DNA from: Georgenia thermotolerans
GTDB lineage: Bacteria; Actinomycetota; Actinomycetes; Actinomycetales; Actinomycetaceae
DNA: 53,617 nt
Reading direction: 5' to 3'
Assembly: GCF_009193185.1 (NCBI RefSeq)
Contig: NZ_VUKF01000031.1
Coordinates: forward strand, 1 to 53,617
The first letter of the stretch is position 1; each line of letters opens with the position of its first letter. Of the stretch, positions 20,802-50,560 are shown piece after piece. The notes under the pieces were generated by a model that did not search any database, was not told the origin of the DNA, and was given only the letters and a program-made list of their open reading frames with translations. The translations under genes were made by a program, and so were the position numbers.

Positions 20802-21094
20802 ACGATCCCATGGTGTGCAGTGGCCGCCCGCACCCGCATCTGCCGAACGTGCACGACCTGACCGTGGAACGTGACCACTGGTTAGGCGAGGCCGCGAGGT
20901 GGCGGGGCTTGTTCGAGAGGGCCGCTAGGGAACTCGCCCGCTCGCATGGTCTGACCCCGGAGCAGGAGTACGTGCGGTGGAACCTGGAACCGCCCGAATG
21001 GCGCACGCAAACCGGCCCAGGACAGCCTGAAACCGGCCCCGGGTACACCGAGCCACCCCTACCCGTATTCGACGCCCAGGAGGCAGCAGCGTGA
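20798..21094 (+). CDS. hypothetical protein (98 aa)
   Basis: The product has a central helix (LTVERDHWLGEAARWRGLFERAARELARS) and a Pro/Gly-rich C-terminus. The LTVERxxxxxE stretch resembles the helix of the coiled-coil protein at 20392, so the two may share ancestry. Coupled to neighbours. Confidence 0.6.
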   Translation: MNDPMVCSGRPHPHLPNVHDLTVERDHWLGEAARWRGLFERAARELARSHGLTPEQEYVRWNLEPPEWRTQTGPGQPETGPGYTEPPLPVFDAQEAAA

Positions 21095-21312
21095 CCGAGA
21101 GACTGCAAGCCGCAGCCGATGTCGCACACTCTGCCGGATTCGCCTCGGTCAGCATGGTGCAGCGCAAGTTGGGCATCGGGTTCGTTGAGGCACGCAACCT
21201 CTGCCAGCGACTCGAAGACCTAGGCGTGTTCGCTCCGACGGTCGGCAGCAAGGCGCGGGACATCCTCACTGCCCGCGAGGAAACCCGCCGAATCATCGAG
21301 GGGGCAGCGTGA
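21091..21312 (+). CDS. stand-alone FtsK-gamma-like winged-helix protein
   Basis: The 73-residue protein closely resembles the gamma domain of FtsK/SpoIIIE translocases: AADVAHSAGFASVSMVQRKLGIGFVEARNLCQRLEDLGVFAPTVGSKARDIL matches its SxSxLQRxxxIGYxRAxxxxxxLExxGxVxP pattern. In FtsK this winged helix reads polar DNA motifs (KOPS) and contacts XerD. Here it is separate from any motor. It may act as a small DNA-binding regulator or touch the host chromosome-segregation system. It is coupled to both neighbours. Confidence 0.75.
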   Translation: MTERLQAAADVAHSAGFASVSMVQRKLGIGFVEARNLCQRLEDLGVFAPTVGSKARDILTAREETRRIIEGAA

Positions 21313-21500
21313 TGAGCTACGGCGCAATCCACGTCGGATCCATCCACATCGGCTACGACCTCGCCGACGACGGAGAACCCATCACCACGGTCACCACCGA
21401 CGGAGACATGCCCCTCGTCACCCAACTCGGCCTACTCCGCCTCGCCGAAGACACCCTCATGAACGGCGCACTGGACGACGAGGAGGACGGCGATGACTGA
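21312..21500 (+). CDS. small acidic protein (62 aa)
   Basis: The 62-residue product (MSYGAIHVGSIHIGYDLADDGEPITTVTTDGDMP...) is beta-rich at the start and ends in a very acidic tail (DDEEDGDD). GTG 21309 is an alternative start. No family is recognised. Confidence 0.6.
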   Translation: MSYGAIHVGSIHIGYDLADDGEPITTVTTDGDMPLVTQLGLLRLAEDTLMNGALDDEEDGDD

Positions 21501-22209
21501 GCCAACCGAGCGGGCGTACAAGCCTGACCACGTGTACCGGGCGGCGATCCTTGACCGGGTGAACCGGCTCACGCGCCCGATCACGACCCGGGAAAAGTAC
21601 GACACCGAGGACGGCACGAGGACGCACGTCACCCGGCACCCGTCGCTGTTGGGGCAGCTCGCGTCCGCGGTCACCGGCACCACCGGACCTTCGACGGCTG
21701 GCGGGAAGGGGTTTGAGTCCAAGCCCGCCGCCAGGTTGGACGCCCTCGACGCACTCACCCGCATCGAGCAGGAAGCCCGCTGGTGGGTCGCAGCACTGTA
21801 CGGCCCCCGACGCGCAACCGCTGCCGCGAACCTCCAATGGCTCGCCGGCCACGCAACCACCATGCCCACCCACGACCTCGCAGACCTCGACCACGACACC
21901 CGCTCATGGGTCGCAGCCGCCACCACCATCTCAGGTATCGACCAGCCCGCATGGCGCCCCTACATCCCCTGCCCCAACTGTGACGAAAAGGGCACGCTCA
22001 GGATCAGGACTGATCCCGTGTACGCCACCTGTGTCGCATGCGGCGAAGGGTGGGACCGGTCCACGGTTGGCGCCATTGCTGACCACCTCGACATCGTGAC
22101 CCAGAGTCACGAAATCCCGACAGTCCCCGCAAGTCACGAAATGCTGACGGGCGGCAGCGGGCGAGGGCTGGTTGCGTCGGATGAGTACGACCTTCCCGGG
22201 GCTGCCTGA
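21493..22209 (+). CDS. phage protein with C-terminal zinc ribbon
   Basis: The 238-residue protein is mainly helical (about residues 1-150, with WWVAALYGPRRATAAANLQWLAGH). It carries a zinc ribbon CPNC-x15-CVAC near 160-185 (PCPNCDEKGTLRIRTDP...CVACGEGWDRSTVG) and a disordered tail. I know such proteins only as conserved actinophage early proteins of unknown role. It ends the second block of the early operon; a strong promoter follows. Confidence 0.7.
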   Translation: MTEPTERAYKPDHVYRAAILDRVNRLTRPITTREKYDTEDGTRTHVTRHPSLLGQLASAVTGTTGPSTAGGKGFESKPAARLDALDALTRIEQEARWWVAALYGPRRATAAANLQWLAGHATTMPTHDLADLDHDTRSWVAAATTISGIDQPAWRPYIPCPNCDEKGTLRIRTDPVYATCVACGEGWDRSTVGAIADHLDIVTQSHEIPTVPASHEMLTGGSGRGLVASDEYDLPGAA

Positions 22210-22229
22210 AAATTGGGTGTGTAGTGGGC

Positions 22230-22263
22230 TTGACAAGGGTGTCTAGCGCGCTATACAGTTGTC
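22230..22263 (+). promoter_or_regulatory. strong internal early promoter with palindromic operator
   Basis: A consensus -35 TTGACA (22230-22235), 16-bp spacer and -10 TATACA (22252-22257) lie upstream of the gene at 22300. The spacer and -10 hold the perfect palindrome TAGCGCGCTA (22244-22253), extendable to TGTnTAGCGCGCTAnACA. CTTGACAAG and a downstream TTGTC are shared with the repressor/Cro region (9033-9072). A regulated phage promoter is likely. Confidence 0.75.
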
Positions 22264-22299
22264 TCAACAGCAAGGGACAACAACCAAGGAGCAGGAACC

Positions 22300-22482
22300 A
22301 TGACCGAAATCAAGTTCACCGCCACCCGCACCGGCCGCCGCGCCTACCGCTACGAGGCCCGCCAGATGCGCTGGTTCCCCATCGGAGTCGCCAAGGCCGA
22401 ACTCCTCATCGCCACCGGCGCCGGCAAGGACATCACCGCCCAGGCCGCCAACCACCGCTCCACCCTCGTCCGCTACCGCTGA
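22300..22482 (+). CDS. small basic protein (60 aa)
   Basis: The 60-residue product (MTEIKFTATRTGRRAYRYEARQMRWFPI...) is a compact basic alpha/beta protein, first gene after the strong promoter at 22230 and preceded by AAGGAG. It should be among the best expressed early proteins. No family is recognised. A 9-bp GC hairpin (22490-22498 with 22503-22511) follows. Confidence 0.65.
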   Translation: MTEIKFTATRTGRRAYRYEARQMRWFPIGVAKAELLIATGAGKDITAQAANHRSTLVRYR

Positions 22483-22489
22483 CCAAACC

Positions 22490-22511
22490 GCCCGGGGCTA
22501 CGGCCCCGGGC
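22490..22511 (+). terminator. GC hairpin, possible attenuator
   Basis: GCCCGGGGC-TACG-GCCCCGGGC forms a perfect 9-bp stem between the promoter-proximal gene and the next one. No T-run follows, so it is more likely an attenuator or RNA-stability element than a full terminator. Confidence 0.4.
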
Positions 22512-22530
22512 AAACCCGAAAGGGAAAGCC

Positions 22531-22995
22531 GTGAACCCGATTCACACCAAGCTCACCAAAGCCCGCACCCGCGTAGATGCGCTAGAGAAAGCCCTACAGC
22601 GCGCCCGCGGCTCAGCGGAGGCAAACACCCCAGGCGGCCTCAGCGGCTACGACTCCGCCATCCTCTCCGGCATCCGCCGCAAGCCCAACCACAAAGCCGA
22701 CAACCGCAGGTGGGCCGCCTACGACCGCGAAGCCGCCATCACCCTCGAACTCGAAAGCGCACGCCGCGACGTCGAAACGCTAGAGGCGCAACTCAAGCGA
22801 GCCGAACAAGACGCTAACGCCCCGCGCGACCTCAACAACCTCGAGCCCGGCGACCTCGTCCGCGACTCCGTTGGCTGGCACCGCGTCACCCGCGTCAACG
22901 CCAAGAGCGTGTCAGTCGAAACCGGCTACTCATGGACCGACCGAATCCCCCACGAACGCATCATCGAAACCCGCGCCGCTAAGGTCGCAGCATGA
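22531..22995 (+). CDS. coiled-coil protein with SH3/KOW-like end (154 aa)
   Basis: Two helical heptad-type segments (about residues 5-30 and 66-98: KLTKARTRVDALEKALQRA; LELESARRDVETLEAQLKRAEQDA) are followed by a small beta domain (LEPGDLVRDSVGWHRVTRVNAKSVSVETGYSW). The layout suggests a dimer with a binding module. GTG 22531 has a GAAAGGGAAAG upstream. Function unknown. Confidence 0.65.
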   Translation: MNPIHTKLTKARTRVDALEKALQRARGSAEANTPGGLSGYDSAILSGIRRKPNHKADNRRWAAYDREAAITLELESARRDVETLEAQLKRAEQDANAPRDLNNLEPGDLVRDSVGWHRVTRVNAKSVSVETGYSWTDRIPHERIIETRAAKVAA

Positions 22996-23168
22996 CCGCC
23001 TACACCGAATGGACCGCCCAGGGTGAGGAGAACGGCGAGGGCTGGATTGCCGAACTCAATGAGTACACCCGTGATGAAGCGGAGGCATACGTCAAGCGCC
23101 ACGGCGGCTACCTCATGCGACGCGAAGTCACCGAATGGGAACGGGTACTGGGAAAGGACAAGAAGTGA
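22992..23168 (+). CDS. tiny acidic protein (58 aa)
   Basis: The 58-residue product (MTAYTEWTAQGEENGEGWIAELNEYTRDEAEAYVKRHGGYLMRREVTEW) has one helix and one strand pair. The ATGA overlap with the gene before and the GTGA overlap with the gene after support it. Confidence 0.55.
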   Translation: MTAYTEWTAQGEENGEGWIAELNEYTRDEAEAYVKRHGGYLMRREVTEWERVLGKDKK

Positions 23169-23398
23169 GCGACTACACGCCCACCACCGAAGCGGTGCGC
23201 ACTGACTGGGTCGAGGGCTGGAACGGCTGGCTCCACGCAGGTGCCGCGTTCGACCGGTGGCTCGCCCAGGTCAGGGCCGAGGCGCTATGGGAGGCTGCGG
23301 ACTTCCTGCGTGACGACATGGACGAGCCGTGGGGGACGCGGGCTGCTAACCGCCTTGATGAGCGCGCCAACCAGATTAGGCGAGGTGAGGTCGCGTGA
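23165..23398 (+). CDS. hypothetical protein, paralogue of the gene at 14068
   Basis: The 77-residue product begins VSDYTPTTEAVRTDW and contains FDRWLAQVRAEALWEAADFLRDD, matching the product of the gene at 14068 in its N-terminal SDYTPxTExVR and the FDRWLxxVRAEA core. It ends with RANQIRRGE where the other ends TRIESGE. It is translationally coupled to both neighbours. Confidence 0.65.
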   Translation: MSDYTPTTEAVRTDWVEGWNGWLHAGAAFDRWLAQVRAEALWEAADFLRDDMDEPWGTRAANRLDERANQIRRGEVA

Positions 23399-23745
23399 CC
23401 ATCACAGAGTTCCTGCTAGCCCGTATCGCTGAGGATGAGGCGGAGGCGCGGTCAAAGCCGACGACTTACCTGTACATCCACCCGGACGGGTACGACATGG
23501 CCGACATGGGCCCCGGGTATGTGCTGGCAGCCAATCCCGCCCGGGTGCTGGCCGAGTGTGCGGCCAAGCGGGCGATCATCGAACCCGCCCGTGATGCGAC
23601 CTACTACGCCAAGCGAGTAGACAGGGAACTCCTCGGCGGCCCCCGGGACGCCATGGCCGACCCCTACCCTGGCGACGTCATCCTCCGCCATCTCGCCGCC
23701 GTCTACGCTGACCACCCGGACTATCAGCAAGAGTGGAAGCCGTGA
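23395..23745 (+). CDS. DUF6221-like actinobacterial protein
   Basis: The 116-residue protein has the pattern FLLARIAEDEAEA... ANPARVLAECAAKRAIIEP... LRHLAAVYADHPDYQQEWKP, which I recognise as a small family (DUF6221) common in actinobacterial prophages and mobile elements. No function is known. Coupled to neighbours near the end of the early operon. Confidence 0.75.
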   Translation: MTITEFLLARIAEDEAEARSKPTTYLYIHPDGYDMADMGPGYVLAANPARVLAECAAKRAIIEPARDATYYAKRVDRELLGGPRDAMADPYPGDVILRHLAAVYADHPDYQQEWKP

Positions 23746-23927
23746 CGAACCTAACCGCCGCTACAGAAGCCCGCCAGCTCGCCCAAGCCCAACTAGAACA
23801 AGCCGACAAGGAATGGCGGCAAGCCATCCGAGAAGAAGTCGCACGCGGCAAGTCCTATGCCCAAATAGCCGAGGTAGCAGGAATCACCCGCGGCCGAGTC
23901 GCCCAGATCATCCACGAAAATCGGTGA
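23742..23927 (+). CDS. small HTH protein (sigma-region-4-like)
   Basis: The 61-residue product carries a helix (ATEARQLAQAQLEQADKEWRQAIREEVARG) followed by a helix-turn-helix KSYAQIAEVAGITRGRVAQIIHEN similar to those in sigma region 4 and small phage regulators. As the last early gene, just before the late promoter and structured region, it could control the early-to-late change. GTG 23742 overlaps the previous stop. Confidence 0.65.
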   Translation: MTNLTAATEARQLAQAQLEQADKEWRQAIREEVARGKSYAQIAEVAGITRGRVAQIIHENR

Positions 23928-23947
23928 CGTCCTATCGGCGTGTCGCG

Positions 23948-23976
23948 TTGACGAACGTCGACAAAACCCATACCAT
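23948..23976 (+). promoter_or_regulatory. promoter of the early-late intergenic region
   Basis: TTGACG (23948-23953), a 17-bp spacer and TACCAT (23971-23976) form a good sigma-70-type promoter 20 bases after the last early gene. Transcription would begin near 23983, exactly where the first hairpin of the structured region starts. It may also feed the late operon. Confidence 0.65.
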
Positions 23977-23982
23977 TACCCC

Positions 23983-24365
23983 TCGTAGGGATTAGTGTCT
24001 CTACGATCAGGAAGCCGCCCCAGCCCCACCGCTGACGGGCGGCTTTCCCACATTCTCCCCACCTAGCCTCTCAACGATGCTCACTACGGTTGGCGAACCC
24101 ACTGGCAGACGTGCCAGAAACGGGGCGCCACACGGCACCTCAGCGTGGGGCACTGAGGTCAAGTTTCCCAGCCATGACGGCTGGGCGGGGTCGGCCCTCG
24201 ATAGCTCGCTACTTAGCAGGGCACGCCGAAAGGGACCGCCATCCATCTACCGTTCGTGGATGCTGGCTGGACTGGTCAGCCCGGTCCCCACCATTCACCC
24301 GCCCGCTGGCATCGACCCACCACACACAACCACGAACCTGGGTGCGAGCGTGCCAGCAGGGCGGG
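23983..24365 (+). ncRNA. candidate structured non-coding RNA upstream of HNH-terminase
   Basis: No convincing protein gene occupies 23928-24510. The first ~380 nt after the promoter fold into consecutive stems: 23983-23988/24001-24006 (6 bp); 24010-24020/24037-24048 (11 bp, one bulge); 24102-24107/24112-24117 (6 bp, inside TGGCG/CGCCA 24091-24095/24126-24130); 24137-24143/24153-24159 (7 bp); 24167-24173/24179-24185 (7 bp); GCCCT/AGGGC 24194-24198/24218-24222. A three-way junction is closed by GGGACCG/CGGTCCC (24232-24238/24282-24288) and holds two hairpins with almost no spare bases. Last comes 24298-24311/24351-24365 (14 bp, one bulge) around a nested ACCCA/TGGGT. The second stem alone could be a weak terminator for the early operon. 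The remaining 24366-24510 is GC-rich without a gene. Confidence 0.6.
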
Positions 24366-24510
24366 ACCACACTCATGCCCGACCCCCACCCATTACCCCG
24401 GCCTATACCCGGACCCCCCTTGATACCCGGGGCCGGGATAAGCCCGGGGAGGTGCAAGCGTCGCGGGGCCGTGGCGCGGGAGGTCAAGCGAACAACAAGA
24501 GGTCAACGGC

Positions 24511-24840
24511 ATGGCAACGTCGCGCACAGGCACAACGAAGTACCTACGCAACCGCGCACGAGTCCTACGCCAAGCACAAACCAACGGCCTCACACACTGC
24601 CCAGGCTACGAAGACGGCCAAGGCAACCACATCAACTGCGGACGCGAACTCAACTACCAAGTACCAAAGCTCCCGGAGTCCGCAGAAGCAGACCACATCC
24701 TTGAACATCGACACGGCGGAACAGACGACGTCGACAACCTGCGCGTGATCTGCCGAACCTGCAACCTCGCACGCAACAGGACACGCGTCCGAGTCAGCGT
24801 GCCGGCCGATGACGGATTCCCAACCAGTCAAGCCTGGTGA
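24511..24840 (+). CDS. HNH endonuclease of the packaging module
   Basis: The 109-residue protein is a compact HNH nuclease with a zinc site: HCPGYEDGQGNHINCG, EADHILEHRHGGTDDVDNLRVICRTCNLARN (the DH of the nuclease near residue 60 and CRTC). HNH genes directly upstream of the terminase are typical of HK97-like cos phages, where the nuclease works with terminase at the cos site. This placement distinguishes it from the two homing-type HNH genes in the window. Confidence 0.85.
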   Translation: MATSRTGTTKYLRNRARVLRQAQTNGLTHCPGYEDGQGNHINCGRELNYQVPKLPESAEADHILEHRHGGTDDVDNLRVICRTCNLARNRTRVRVSVPADDGFPTSQAW

Positions 24841-24964
24841 CCGTTCCACATGCCGGAACATTCCGCGTGGTGGAAGGGGTGGGGGGCCACCCCCGCCCCC
24901 GGCCCCCGCGCCCGCCCCCCTGCGCATAGCGAGATCCCCCCGAGACCCAGGGAGGGGGTGCCGG
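24841..24964 (+). other. GC-tract region, candidate cos site
   Basis: This 124-bp gap between the HNH and small terminase genes has G and C tracts (G-run at about 24875-24890, C-runs to 24920) and ends in AGGGAGGGGGTG. In cos phages with an HNH nuclease the cohesive-end site is commonly here. Position and composition only; the cut cannot be located by eye. Confidence 0.35.
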
Positions 24965-25225
24965 ATGGCCCCGAAGAAGGAAACAACCGTGTCCCGCATT
25001 GACCGTCTCCGCGCCCTCGCGGACCTGCTTGAGGCGTCTTTGGACGAGGCGACGGTTGGTGTGCGCGCGCAGATTGCGGCGCAGTACCGGGCGACGCTTG
25101 CGGAGATTGCGGAGATTGAGAAGGCCGCGCCTGAGCAGAAGGGGACGGCGTTAGATGAGCTCAACGCACGTCGTGCTGCTCGGGAAGCAGGAGCCTCGCG
25201 TAAGGCTGGAGCCGCGCCGGTCTGA
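24965..25225 (+). CDS. terminase small subunit
   Basis: The 86-residue protein is a short helical protein typical of actinophage small terminases: SRIDRLRALADLLEASLDEATVGVRAQIAAQYRATLAEIAEIEKA, then GTALDELNARRA and a basic tail. It would recognise the packaging site and bring the large subunit to DNA. It overlaps the large terminase by 71 bases. ATG 24965 fits the domain; the longer in-frame upstream part is Pro/Gly-rich and runs through the presumed cos region, so I reject it. Confidence 0.75.
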   Translation: MAPKKETTVSRIDRLRALADLLEASLDEATVGVRAQIAAQYRATLAEIAEIEKAAPEQKGTALDELNARRAAREAGASRKAGAAPV

Positions 25226-26630
25226 GAAGTGGACTGATGGTGATGACGCGTGTTTTTTGGCGTCGTCGTATGGGTTGACGCCTGATCCGTGGCAGACGCT
25301 GGTTATTGCGTCGTGGTTGGGGCGTAAGGCTGATGGGAAGTTGGCTGCCGGCCGGTGTGGGTTGGCGGTGCCGCGTCAGAATGGCAAGAACGGCATCCTT
25401 GAGGTTGTCGAGCTGTTCAAGATTGTGGTGTTGGGCCGGAAGGTTCTGCACACGGCGCATGAGGTGAAGACGGCGCGGAAGGCGTTTCTGCGGCTTAAGT
25501 CGTTCTTTGAGAACGAGCGGAAGTATCCGGAGCTGGCTGCGCTTGTGCAGGATATTCGGCAGACGAACGGTCAGGAAGCCATTGTTTTGACGAACGGTGG
25601 TTCGGTTGAGTTTGTGGCTCGGTCCCGTGGGTCGGGTCGTGGCTTCACGGTCGATGACCTCGTGCTTGATGAGGCGCAGGAACTGTCGGATGAGCAGCTT
25701 GAGGCGCTGCTGCCGACGACTTCTGCTGCGCCGTCGGGTGATCCGCAGATCATCATGACGGGGACGCCTCCGCCGCCGCACGCGGATGGTGCGCCGTTTA
25801 AGCGGATGCGCGCTTCGGGTGTTGAGGGCAAGGACAAGCGGCTGTCGTGGCATGAGTGGTCGCCTGAGCGTGTGCCTGACCCATCGGACCGGGATGGGCT
25901 GTTGGAGGCGGCTGCTGAGACGAATCCGGCGCTTGGTTTGCGGTTGCAGATGCAGGTCGTTGAGGACGAGTTGGCGCAGATGTCGTTTGCGGGGTTCATG
26001 CGTGAGCGGTGTGGCGCTTGGGATTCTGACGCGCTTGGTGGGGTGATCGACTTCCCGCGGTGGTTGGGCCTGGCTATCCCGGCCGAGGGTGCGCCGTCTG
26101 ATGGTGCGCGCGCGTATGCGGTGAAGTTCTCCGCTGATGGTGAGCGTGTCGGTGTGGCTGTCGGGGTTCAGGTTGAGGGTGCCCCGTGCCATGTGGAGGC
26201 GTTGGGTGTTCGGCCGGCGTCTGATGGCGTGGCTGGGCTGGTGGCGTGGTTGGCGGAGCGTGCTCGTTCGGCGGCGGTGATTCTGGTCGACGGTAAGGCG
26301 GGCGCGGGTGACATGGTCGCGTCTCTGCTCGCCGCGGGGGTTCCGAAGCGGCGGGTGCGTCTGGTGTCGACGGATGAGGCGATCACGGCGCATGCGGGGT
26401 TCCTACGCGCGATCAATGAAGGCGATTTGACGCATTTGGCGCAGCCGGGTTTGGACTCTCAGGTGCGCGTGGCCGGCAAACGGAAGATCGGCAATGCGGG
26501 CGGGTGGGGTTGGCAGTCGGTCACCCCGGGCGCTGATGTGACGGCTCTTGATGCGGTGACTCTTGCGCGCCATGGCGCGGCTACAGCGAAGAAGCGAACT
26601 AGTGACGATGGGAGCGTGGTGATCCTGTGA
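25155..26630 (+). CDS. terminase large subunit
   Basis: The 491-residue protein is the ATP-driven DNA packaging motor and nuclease. The Walker A variant is PRQNGKN (residues 73-79), Walker B with the catalytic Glu is VLDEAQE (about 171-177), the coupling region is MTGTPPPPHADG, and the C-terminal RNase H-like nuclease domain has VILVDGKAGAGD and GADVTALDAVTLARHG. This matches actinophage terminases of HK97 type. The start at 25155 lies within the small subunit gene. From here on the coding strand becomes G/T-rich, unlike the C-rich early genes. Confidence 0.95.
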   Translation: MSSTHVVLLGKQEPRVRLEPRRSEKWTDGDDACFLASSYGLTPDPWQTLVIASWLGRKADGKLAAGRCGLAVPRQNGKNGILEVVELFKIVVLGRKVLHTAHEVKTARKAFLRLKSFFENERKYPELAALVQDIRQTNGQEAIVLTNGGSVEFVARSRGSGRGFTVDDLVLDEAQELSDEQLEALLPTTSAAPSGDPQIIMTGTPPPPHADGAPFKRMRASGVEGKDKRLSWHEWSPERVPDPSDRDGLLEAAAETNPALGLRLQMQVVEDELAQMSFAGFMRERCGAWDSDALGGVIDFPRWLGLAIPAEGAPSDGARAYAVKFSADGERVGVAVGVQVEGAPCHVEALGVRPASDGVAGLVAWLAERARSAAVILVDGKAGAGDMVASLLAAGVPKRRVRLVSTDEAITAHAGFLRAINEGDLTHLAQPGLDSQVRVAGKRKIGNAGGWGWQSVTPGADVTALDAVTLARHGAATAKKRTSDDGSVVIL

Positions 26631-28030
26631 GCATTCTCCCTCTGTCTCCGGTTCTGCTCGGTGGCCTGTCCAATGACGAGGCTGAGCTGATTGAGGCGCT
26701 GACTGACCAGTTGGGGCGTGTGGCTGGCCCGAACATGGAGGCCAACGCCTACTACGAGGCGCGGCACGTTCTGTCGTCGCCGGGGTTCACGATCCCGCAG
26801 GAGGTGGCGTCTCGCCTCGCTCCGGTGGTTGGCGCGCCGGGCACGGTCGTTGACGTGCTGGATGAGCGGCTGGACTTCCTTGGCTGGGATGACGCGGGCG
26901 CGGATGACCTCGGTTTGGGCGAGGTGTATGACGCGAACGAGCTGGACGCTGAGGCGCCGATGGTGCACCTTGACGCCCTGATCTTCGGGACGGCGTTCGC
27001 GCGGGTCGGAACGGGTGCTGGGACGCCGCTGGTGACGATGCATCCGCCGACGACGACGACGGGTCTGCGTGACCCTGCTACGCGGCGTCTGCGGGCGGCG
27101 TGGACGTCCCTCGAGGTCCGCGACGGGGAGACCGTCCGCGGTGTCCTGGACGTGCCCGATGAGGCTGTCACGGTTGAGCGTCGCCAGGGCCGTTGGGTTG
27201 TGGTGGACCGGGATCAGCACCGTATGGGCCGTGTGCCGGTGGTGCAGTTCTCGAACCGTCCGCGGGCGTCGCGTCGTGGTGGCCGGTCGGAGATTACGCC
27301 GGCTATTCGGTCGCTGACTGAGGACATGATGCGTGCGGCGCTGGGGATGAACGTCAATACGATGTTCTACTCGATTCCGCAGCTGATGGTGCTGGGGCGC
27401 GGGCCGGATGCGTTCAAGGATCGCAACGGTAACCCGGTTCCGGGGTGGAAGATCCTGGCGGGTCACGCGTTGGCGATCAACAAGGACGCCGACGGTGACA
27501 TCCCGGAGATTCACCAGTTGCAGGTGGCGTCGCCGCAGCCGTTCATTGAGCAGTTGCGGGATTTCCGGATGCAGGTGGCTTCCGAGGCTGGCATGCCTGC
27601 GGACTACCTCGGTATCCAGACGTCGAACCCGTCGAGCGCAGACGCGATTCGTATGGGTGAGTCCCGTTTGGTGAAGCGCACGGAGCGGCGCCAGTCGGGG
27701 TTTGGGCGGTCGTGGCTTGAGGTGGCGCGCCTGTCGCTGCTGGTGCGCGATGGCGGGGTCCCGGAGGACTTCGCGTCGCGCATTGCGGTGGATTGGCAGA
27801 ATGCGGCGACTCCGACGCGGGCTGCGGCAGCGGATGAGGTCACGAAGCTCGTCGGCGTTGGCGTGCTGGAGCCTGGGTCTGAGGTGGTCCGCAAGCGGCT
27901 GTCTCTGACCCGGTCGGAGACGCGCCTTCTGGATGCTGAGCAGGCGCGTGCGCGTGCTCGCCGGTCCGTGGATGAGCTGATCGCTGCGGCCGGGAACAGG
28001 ACGGCGGTGACCGGTGGCGACGGCGACTGA
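26627..28030 (+). CDS. portal protein
   Basis: The 467-residue protein is an SPP1-gp6-like portal: an N-terminal MSILPLSPVLLGGLSNDEAELIEALTDQ, a wing domain (FGTAFARVGTGAGTPLVTMHPPTTTTG...), the stem/clip region NRPRASRRGGRSEITPAIRSLTEDMMRAALGMNVN, and a helical crown with PADYLGIQTSNPSSADAIR. Twelve copies form the DNA channel at one capsid vertex. It overlaps the terminase stop by GTGA and the next gene by 17 bases. Confidence 0.92.
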   Translation: MSILPLSPVLLGGLSNDEAELIEALTDQLGRVAGPNMEANAYYEARHVLSSPGFTIPQEVASRLAPVVGAPGTVVDVLDERLDFLGWDDAGADDLGLGEVYDANELDAEAPMVHLDALIFGTAFARVGTGAGTPLVTMHPPTTTTGLRDPATRRLRAAWTSLEVRDGETVRGVLDVPDEAVTVERRQGRWVVVDRDQHRMGRVPVVQFSNRPRASRRGGRSEITPAIRSLTEDMMRAALGMNVNTMFYSIPQLMVLGRGPDAFKDRNGNPVPGWKILAGHALAINKDADGDIPEIHQLQVASPQPFIEQLRDFRMQVASEAGMPADYLGIQTSNPSSADAIRMGESRLVKRTERRQSGFGRSWLEVARLSLLVRDGGVPEDFASRIAVDWQNAATPTRAAAADEVTKLVGVGVLEPGSEVVRKRLSLTRSETRLLDAEQARARARRSVDELIAAAGNRTAVTGGDGD

Positions 28031-28793
28031 CGTTGGCCGGCTCCGGGAAGCGAATGCGGCGCTGGAAACGCTTGCCCTCGATGCCCTCCGGGGCTTTTGG
28101 GCGTCTTTGGACCTCTCGAAGCCGGAGAAGGTTCGGGATGCGCTGGTCGAGTTCCTTCCGGCGCTGACGGCCAAGTATGGGGAGGTCGCGGCGGTTGTCG
28201 CGGCGGACTGGTATGACGAGTTGCGGGCCTCTATGGGGGTCCGTGGCCGGTTCGCCGCGGTGATGGCCGCCCCTGTCCCCGCGGCGGCTGCTGTGGCGCA
28301 GGTGCGGTTCGGTGCGCAGCACTTGTTCACTCCGACACCGCAGCAGACGTTGGCGTTCCTCGAGGGTGTGGCGTCTAAGTACGTTCTCCAGCCTGGACGG
28401 GACACGGTGCAGCAGTCTGCGGCTGCTGATCCTGCCGCGTCTGGGTGGCACCGCGAGACTCGTCACGAGGCGTGCGACTTCTGCCGCCTTCTGGCAGGCC
28501 GGGGCGGGGTGTATCGCAAGGCCACGGCAGCATTCGCGGCGCATCACAACTGCCATTGCGTAGCCGTTCCGTCCTGGGACGCGAACGCGCCCGAGGTGCC
28601 TGTTGAGGCTTATGTGGCTTCGCAGCGTCTCGACTCTTTGCGCCGCCAGGCCGCAGGCGAGCCCGTCACGCTCTCCACGCGCCGGAAGAGGTACCTGGAG
28701 CGGCGTGGTTTGACCGCGCAGGAAGACGCGCAACGGCAACTCGACGCCCACCGCGCCCGGGTGCGCGAGTACATGGCATCGATGGACGACTAG
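28014..28793 (+). CDS. MuF-like minor head protein
   Basis: The 259-residue protein has an N-terminal helical part and a C-terminal MuF-type domain with the zinc-like signature CDFCRLLAGRGGVY...AAHHNCHC (about residues 156-185). Such proteins are few-copy capsid proteins attached to the portal and sometimes injected with DNA. The final ~50 residues are charged helices. I see no separate capsid protease gene, so maturation may need no proteolysis or may use a domain here that I do not recognise. Confidence 0.85.
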   Translation: MATATDVGRLREANAALETLALDALRGFWASLDLSKPEKVRDALVEFLPALTAKYGEVAAVVAADWYDELRASMGVRGRFAAVMAAPVPAAAAVAQVRFGAQHLFTPTPQQTLAFLEGVASKYVLQPGRDTVQQSAAADPAASGWHRETRHEACDFCRLLAGRGGVYRKATAAFAAHHNCHCVAVPSWDANAPEVPVEAYVASQRLDSLRRQAAGEPVTLSTRRKRYLERRGLTAQEDAQRQLDAHRARVREYMASMDD

Positions 28794-50535: not shown

Positions 50536-50560
50536 TGGTGCCCCCAGCGGGATTCGAACC
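50536..50560. repeat. attR core (tRNA 3' end)
   Basis: These 25 bases match 6656-6680 exactly and form the 3' acceptor strand, CCA and part of the T-arm of the minus-strand tRNA. The complete tRNA lies on this side, so the phage attP supplied its 3' end on integration. Confidence 0.9.

Follow-up and report, generated by a model that had tools for sequence, protein, structure and literature searches.

What lies between the early and the late genes of a prophage is the question raised by positions 23928-24510 of a sequence from Georgenia thermotolerans, where a gap separates a small HTH gene (23733-23927) from an HNH gene (24511-24840), with replication genes on its 5′ side and terminase, portal, protease and capsid genes on its 3′ side. 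The window analysed here, that is the whole stretch of DNA in which this locus lies, is 53,617 nucleotides long. An original prediction had described the gap as a candidate structured non-coding RNA that it did not match to a known class, and had suggested for it a role in packaging, in the early-late switch or as a large ornate phage RNA. Of that interpretation the structured non-coding element is retained and the lack of a known class is given up; for packaging, the early-late switch and the large ornate RNA no support was found. The reading that we favour, to which we assign a probability of roughly 0.57, is that positions 24054-24099 would encode an abiF-type RNA acting as a phage-borne decoy antitoxin against the AbiF of the host. 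The features of the locus are as follows.

23948..23976, + strand: sigma-70-type promoter-like site TTGACG-17-TACCAT; consensus match, predicted start at about 23983
23983..24006, + strand: 10-bp hairpin where the predicted transcript begins; z -5.2
24010..24047, + strand: 11-bp G+C-rich stem, a bulge and 4 further pairs; z -4.5
24054..24099, + strand: abiF-like RNA; RF03085 27.9 bits (cut-off 37, not reached), R1 35.8 bits, outer-stem test
24102..24117, + strand: 6-bp hairpin CUGGCA-GACG-UGCCAG; z -3.6
24137..24159, + strand: 7-bp hairpin, alone not beyond chance; z -0.7
24167..24185, + strand: 7-bp hairpin; z -3.6
24232..24288, + strand: three-way junction, modest (z -2.0) and without convincing relatives
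24298..24365, + strand: 14-bp stem with one bulge (24298-24311/24351-24365); z -4.8
24511..24840, + strand: HNH endonuclease gene (downstream context)
25155..26630, + strand: terminase large subunit gene (context)

Folding and coding potential of the gap

The gap is structured and probably non-coding, as judged from its folding, its composition by codon phase and its open reading frames. Specifically, the plus strand of 23983-24510 has a minimum free energy (MFE) of -247.4, versus -215.7 ± 6.1 in 100 dinucleotide shuffles (z -5.2), and none of the 100 folds as well; for the minus strand the value is z -1.7, with 5/100 shuffles equally good. G+C content per codon phase is flat (0.67/0.64/0.66, versus 0.72/0.46/0.81 in the DUF6221 gene), and of the five gap ORFs compared with Pfam none gave a match below E 0.17. 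The earlier statements that the gap holds no convincing gene and that its stems exceed what G+C content would give are borne out, the latter on the plus strand, and to this extent the proposed structured non-coding element between the early and the late genes finds support. In 150-nt windows of the plus strand the mean z is -2.3 inside the gap (9 windows) versus -0.2 outside it (125 windows, 21000-28150). The signal is uneven along the gap: the strongest contributions come from the hairpins at 23983-24047 and the stem at 24298-24365, and when the first two hairpins are left out (24050-24510) z is -2.9.

The individual elements named in the original prediction were largely recovered. The promoter TTGACG-17-TACCAT is present at 23948-23976 and is the sole promoter-like site in 23600-25100, where 0.2 would be expected from shuffles; the same scan found no U-tract terminator. 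The 11-bp stem exists at 24010-24020/24037-24047, its 3′ end being one base shorter than the claimed 24048. It may represent a candidate early-operon terminator without a U tract and, if it were a terminator, this would bear on the transcription of the downstream elements. The 14-bp stem with one bulge is present exactly as described, and the three-way junction closed by seven pairs is found in its place, though with a z of only -2.0: GGGACCG (24232-24238) and CGGTCCC (24282-24288) enclose two hairpins, the first of which has two near-equal pairings, the MFE one at 24244-24262 and the one proposed earlier at 24240-24262. As a tRNA-like structure the junction was rejected, having no tRNA match, and neither ARAGORN nor Rfam found a tRNA or tRNA-like element in the gap. 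Rfam matches to GlsR4 (25.0 bits, cut-off 70) and SNORA49 (16.9 bits, cut-off 35) were taken as chance. The hairpins neighbouring the abiF-like RNA may be candidate terminators or stabilisers. In addition, two direct repeats of 24 nt each, 75% alike, lie at 24110-24133 and 24349-24372; each contains TGCCAG, which is the 3′ arm in a stem of the form CTGGCA/TGCCAG.

Kinship with abiF RNA

AbiF is a HEPN-RNase toxin, a relative and proposed ancestor of Cas13, whose effect on phages is poorly known. Against the original prediction, which matched the gap to no known class, positions 24054-24099 are very likely kin of abiF RNA, being a near relative by both the Rfam model RF03085 and our own model R1. 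The search of Rfam that had been proposed gave a divided answer, as a permissive run returned abiF RNA at full length (24058-24094, 27.9 bits, E 0.0077, or 0.015 in another run), below the curated gathering threshold of 37 bits, and at curated cut-offs abiF RNA is not reported in the window. Because of this score we name the element abiF-like and do not count it as a full member. The match is more than a weak hit, since the 19 consecutive bases of the conserved loop and inner 3-bp stem, AGCCUCUCAACGAUGCUCA, equal the Rfam consensus at 19/19 positions. A genome-wide search with the Rfam model at E 0.001 gave no match, and is uninformative because its 14 control genomes were likewise silent.

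In the window copy the loop is conserved, the inner stem AGC/GCU is intact and the outer stem CCCACC/GGUUGG forms 5/6 pairs in the standard register, with one C-U mismatch; 5/6 pairs arise by chance in 1.0% of shuffled flanks and in 2.7% of random gap segments. The hairpin is identified by its sequence and not by its stability, its z being only -0.2. By simple arithmetic with even base use, chance would place an exact 18-mer in the window about 2e-6 times, and the core with up to three mismatches occurs 0.05 times in shuffles. The exact 16-nt core is found in 1 of 213 genomes of the host's family, namely the window's own, and its reversed control in none. The copy is a single motif, with a linker, CACUAC, unlike the common CAAACC or CAAAUC. 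R1 is a covariance model derived from 60 viral copies; it finds one match in the window up to E 10 (24054-24099, 35.8 bits, E 1.3e-9), its E-values being partly circular because the copies were picked for the exact core. Across 9 same-genus genomes, up to E 1, the window copy is the only R1 match.

Toxin-less copies in viral genomes

At E 10 the ORFs of the window contain no AbiF. Pfam Abi_2 is absent from the window's genome and from 8/8 other same-genus genomes, and AbiF is common in the family at large, with Abi_2 in 105/213 genomes.

At least 120 stretches of IMG/VR contigs contain the exact 18-nt core, as do at least 119 cellular loci, a redundant collection that is neither complete nor random, the cellular part being largely Bacteroidales and the viral part mostly fragments (2 of the 120 listed viral segments are cut by a contig end). 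By a profile that was built on 16 AbiF sequences from the family of the host and then iterated, and that may miss remote forms, an AbiF frame follows the core in 1 of the 120 viral loci listed, 103 having none in at least 1 kb and 16 being too short; for the 119 cellular loci listed, the corresponding numbers are 66, 42 and 11. Over whole records, Pfam Abi_2 was found in 1 of 94 IMG/VR contigs, taken from the at least 120 viral stretches, and in 0/6 complete named phages, the check being made in two batches (1/50, then 0/50, the latter including the six named phages). In the sole viral locus with AbiF among those listed (L095), the AbiF frame opens 44 nt after the core start, and because this matches the layout in Gordonia effusa (L264, 43 nt), the usual RNA-then-AbiF arrangement is detectable when present. 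Toxin-less copies are not confined to viruses, as the 42 listed cellular loci with no AbiF frame indicate; some AbiF-less cellular loci have non-pairing flanks, e.g. L197, L223, L224 and L230. In an Ignavibacteriales MAG (L272, 7433-7720), three exact abiF cores follow one another at 135-nt spacing, in an array-like manner.

Similarity searches of phages returned 44 records at E ≤10 with the window segment as query and 50 at E ≤1 with a viral segment, including Synechococcus phages, Arthrobacter phages Mimi and Talia1610 and mycobacteriophages (e.g. Redno2 and Lolly9), all as judged by similarity; R1 matches 6/6 of the named phages fetched from among them. In mycobacteriophages Wanda, Optimus and Baka (H97-H101), gene calls labelled 'hypothetical protein' cover the abiF RNA match, and these calls may be wrong.

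In the viral copies the outer stem pairs and covaries beyond shuffles, from which we take these hairpins to be RNAs under maintenance. In particular, 86% of cells pair in A2 (88 unique viral segments plus the window), and 99 cells are changed on both sides versus 31.7 in shuffles (0/500 as high), a comparison uncorrected for kinship; when the partner column is shifted by 1-3 positions, only 32-50% of cells still pair. By contrast, how many of the six pairs show double changes (6/6) does not set the alignments apart from shuffles, 208/500 and 352/500 of which reach that number in the two tests. A1 comprised 60 of the 88 unique viral segments, 28, mostly near-duplicates, having been omitted by hand. 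Among these were L052, L106 and L114, whose flanks misfit the stem; A2 restored all of them, with similar results.

The viral cores often have a tRNA nearby, within 300 nt in 44 of the 120 listed loci, versus 8.8% of random positions there; among the listed cellular loci this holds for 1/119. On the same strand, a tRNA starts at most 60 nt downstream in 27 of the 120 listed viral loci (18 distinct flanks), and in 26 of these 27 the distance from the core is 15-20 nt; no such tRNA lies on the opposite strand. Processing of the tRNA 5′ end could then shorten the abiF RNA at its 3′ end. The only tRNA of the window is at 50536, and none is near the abiF-like copy. In phage sk1 (L315, 27645-27717) there is a second tRNA match, of 39.9 bits, that is not listed for phage 712.

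AbiF loci of the host's family as possible targets

With strict filters, R1 has matches in 16/213 genomes of the family, the window's included, and at the other 15 an AbiF frame is present in nine and absent in six (L335 and L341-L345, within the fetched flanks). Among the best-scoring 20 Abi_2 loci, five, all belonging to these nine AbiF-linked matches, show a clear upstream R1 match, and the remaining 15 a weak one or none. Comparison of the inner stem and loop of one locus, L331, CGCCTCTCAACGATGCGC, with those of the window, AGCCTCTCAACGATGCTC, reveals a single exchanged inner-stem base pair; the AbiF of L331 is split over two frames and may be broken. The CGC/GCG type to which L331 belongs is found on nine viral contigs, with Abi_2 in 0/9 of the records. 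Phages thus carry close copies of the antitoxin types present at AbiF loci of this family. At three further AbiF loci of the family (L168, L173 and L185) the loop is 8 nt longer, the core is interrupted and the outer stem is perfect; their RNAs are perhaps a distinct antitoxin subtype.

Packaging, large RNA families and relatives of the gap

The suggested role in packaging found no support. In 4/4 related records no annotated gene follows HNH, and the terminase starts 380-400 nt from the left end of the record in 26 of the 30 listed (the other 4 opened elsewhere), so that the genome ends probably lie after HNH and outside the gap; a cos site in the gap was accordingly set aside. Two IMG/VR portal relatives (L317 and L319) both begin, at positions 1-60, with AGGCACGAT, about 1.8 kb before the portal gene. 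This start resembles a physical genome end; judged by distance, the equivalent place in the window would be at about 24810-24840, close to where the HNH gene ends. A part in the early-late switch likewise gained no support and was not contradicted. Nor was support found for a large ornate phage RNA: GOLLD, ROOL and OLE gave no match at gathering scores and, over 23700-24900, none up to E 10, and for the hairpin chain only short, weak matches turned up.

When the whole gap was compared with phages, eight records matched over 27-37 nt (E 0.7), six of the eight through the abiF core at 24057-24083. Among 9 same-genus genomes the best other match had E 0.009, and in the 213 family genomes the window itself was joined by just two matches, 27 and 47 nt long. 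These two were also the best outside the core among 325 fetched loci (E 5e-5 and 6e-4). We took the matches outside the core as chance, and none of them is known to lie beside a related phage gene. The closest portal relatives, three at 71-78% identity and one at 29%, are fragments ending short of the gap. The abiF site is not conserved beside related HNH genes, as 23 loci with such a gene hold no abiF RNA by R1, nor by Rfam in the 16 of them searched. In Propionibacterium phage P9.1 (L027, 1839-2991), about 1.15 kb without annotated genes lies upstream of a related HNH gene, with no Rfam match up to E 1 and no R1 match.

A decoy antitoxin and its alternatives

In known AbiF systems, an RNA of this type, produced just ahead of abiF, binds the HEPN ribonuclease AbiF and neutralises it. 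On the proposed mechanism, a phage would transcribe its own abiF-like RNA on infection or induction. This RNA would stand in for the cognate antitoxin by binding the AbiF that the infected cell contains, and the abortive response would be blocked, as by pseudo-ToxI in the case of ToxIN. The computed basis of this reading is the motif, the lack of a detectable AbiF, the toxin-less viral copies, the covariation of their stem and the AbiF loci of the family with near-identical RNAs. Transcription, binding to AbiF and benefit to the phage we infer, and that a toxin-less phage abiF RNA would silence AbiF is suggested by analogy with RCd22 and pseudo-ToxI. Counting against a decoy are the broken C-U outer pair, the single copy, the unusual linker and the sub-threshold Rfam score, together with a possible end of transcription at the 24010-24047 stem, ahead of the motif. 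The loss of RCd22 activity on removal of one pair per motif stem, the failure of the wild-type PhiTE locus to suppress abortive infection, both described below, and the toxin-less copies outside viruses weigh the same way. Moreover, a region of phage sk1 reportedly, by the title of a report, protects phage 712 from AbiF; the abiF motif is absent from both phages, and its absence from sk1 argues against a simple generalisation of decoy RNAs.

A decaying relic would account for the same motif if a whole AbiF module had once been in the phage, the toxin being lost and the RNA left as a functionless remnant. The outer-stem mismatch and low Rfam score of the window copy would fit such a history, as would the viral contig L095, which has both RNA and AbiF, and the occurrence of AbiF genes in prophages, described in PMC12373285. 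Nevertheless, the ORFs of the window hold no trace of AbiF, the loop and inner stem are intact, and the toxin-less viral copies show compensatory pairing, which plain decay would not give; a search for sister prophages of the element found none. We regard the relic as unlikely. Distinctly unlikely, in our view, is that the gap consists mainly of transcription signals (early terminators, a late promoter, a leader) among which the abiF motif is incidental. The strong hairpins at 23983-24047 directly follow the last early gene and have the strongest local folding z, and one promoter-like site is present, but this explanation leaves the abiF loop unaccounted for, lacks a U-tract terminator and is in any case compatible with the decoy.

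A role in the lysogen, such as protection from AbiF modules on incoming elements, rather than in lytic growth, we hold to be very unlikely: the element does sit in a prophage, but toxin-less copies occur also in phages such as cyanophage S-SZBM1, for which lysogeny is presumably not to be expected. The action of RCd22 in trans, documented in PMC12373285, would favour such a role. Finally, the gap could be one large structured RNA of a new class, of which the abiF hairpin is one domain, a view to which z -5.2 over 528 nt, the lack of a coding signal and several perfect stems lend themselves. It appears highly improbable, as the other parts have no convincing homologue in phages, the 213 family genomes or the 325 loci and the folding signal is uneven along the gap.

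If the decoy antitoxin is taken as the working interpretation, its generality can be considered. With odds only slightly better than even, toxin-less abiF RNAs would form a widespread class of phage counter-defence (in phages of cyanobacteria, mycobacteria, Arthrobacter and many others), often placed 15-20 nt before a tRNA whose 5′ processing would trim their 3′ end, and the window would hold a member in a new setting, the structured early/late gap. If phages widely carry a toxin-less antitoxin RNA, AbiF must exert real pressure on them. Such a class would be searchable by sequence and testable by plasmid assays, and it would explain small, mostly unannotated elements in phage tRNA clusters.

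Comparison with known systems

The window element shares with abiF RNA (RF03085; RCd22; AbiFr of PbAbiF) the loop, the inner stem, the hairpin geometry and the length, and the viral outer stems covary; it differs in having no adjoining AbiF gene, one copy where RCd22 has two, a broken outer pair and a score below the cut-off. Unlike the type III-like AbiF toxin-antitoxin module, it comes without a toxin gene. According to PMC12373285, RCd22 of C. difficile carries two abiF motifs and binds AbiF directly, neutralising it both in cis and in trans; the stems of RCd22 are required for this, since removing one pair per motif stem abolished activity. In a review, AbiF is presented as an RNase that acts on single-stranded RNA and is kept in check by its own RNA (PMC12737573), and AbiD/F has been linked to RF03085 and Cas13 (PMC12165695).

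A phage-borne motif has been recorded before in cyanophage S-CREM1, where an abiF sRNA was annotated by Rfam and called possibly functional in infection (PMC9964418), a statement repeated in PMC12197685. That phage and its host are different from ours, and in the accessible part of PMC9964418 no counter-defence role was found proposed. More generally, the literature searched, which left subscription papers mostly uncovered, yielded no proposal of a toxin-less phage abiF RNA as a decoy. What is new here is the combination of a known RNA type with a known antitoxin mimicry, not found described for AbiF in that literature.

The mimicry itself is known from phage PhiTE, which escapes ToxIN abortive infection via pseudo-ToxI repeats; the wild-type locus with its short pseudo-ToxI gave no suppression and only expanded or recombined loci worked (PMC3475682). 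Like pseudo-ToxI, the abiF-like RNA is phage-encoded, toxin-less and similar to a host antitoxin RNA, and a like action is proposed for it; toxin and RNA are different, and what was established for PhiTE by experiment, for the expanded or recombined loci only, is here inferred. A further parallel is offered by the phage tRNAs that evade tRNA-degrading defences (PMC11555353), which also represent an RNA-only counter-defence, and many viral abiF RNAs adjoin tRNA genes, unlike the window copy. The two strategies would nonetheless differ in principle, as such tRNAs replace the target of the nuclease, whereas an abiF-like RNA would bind the nuclease itself.
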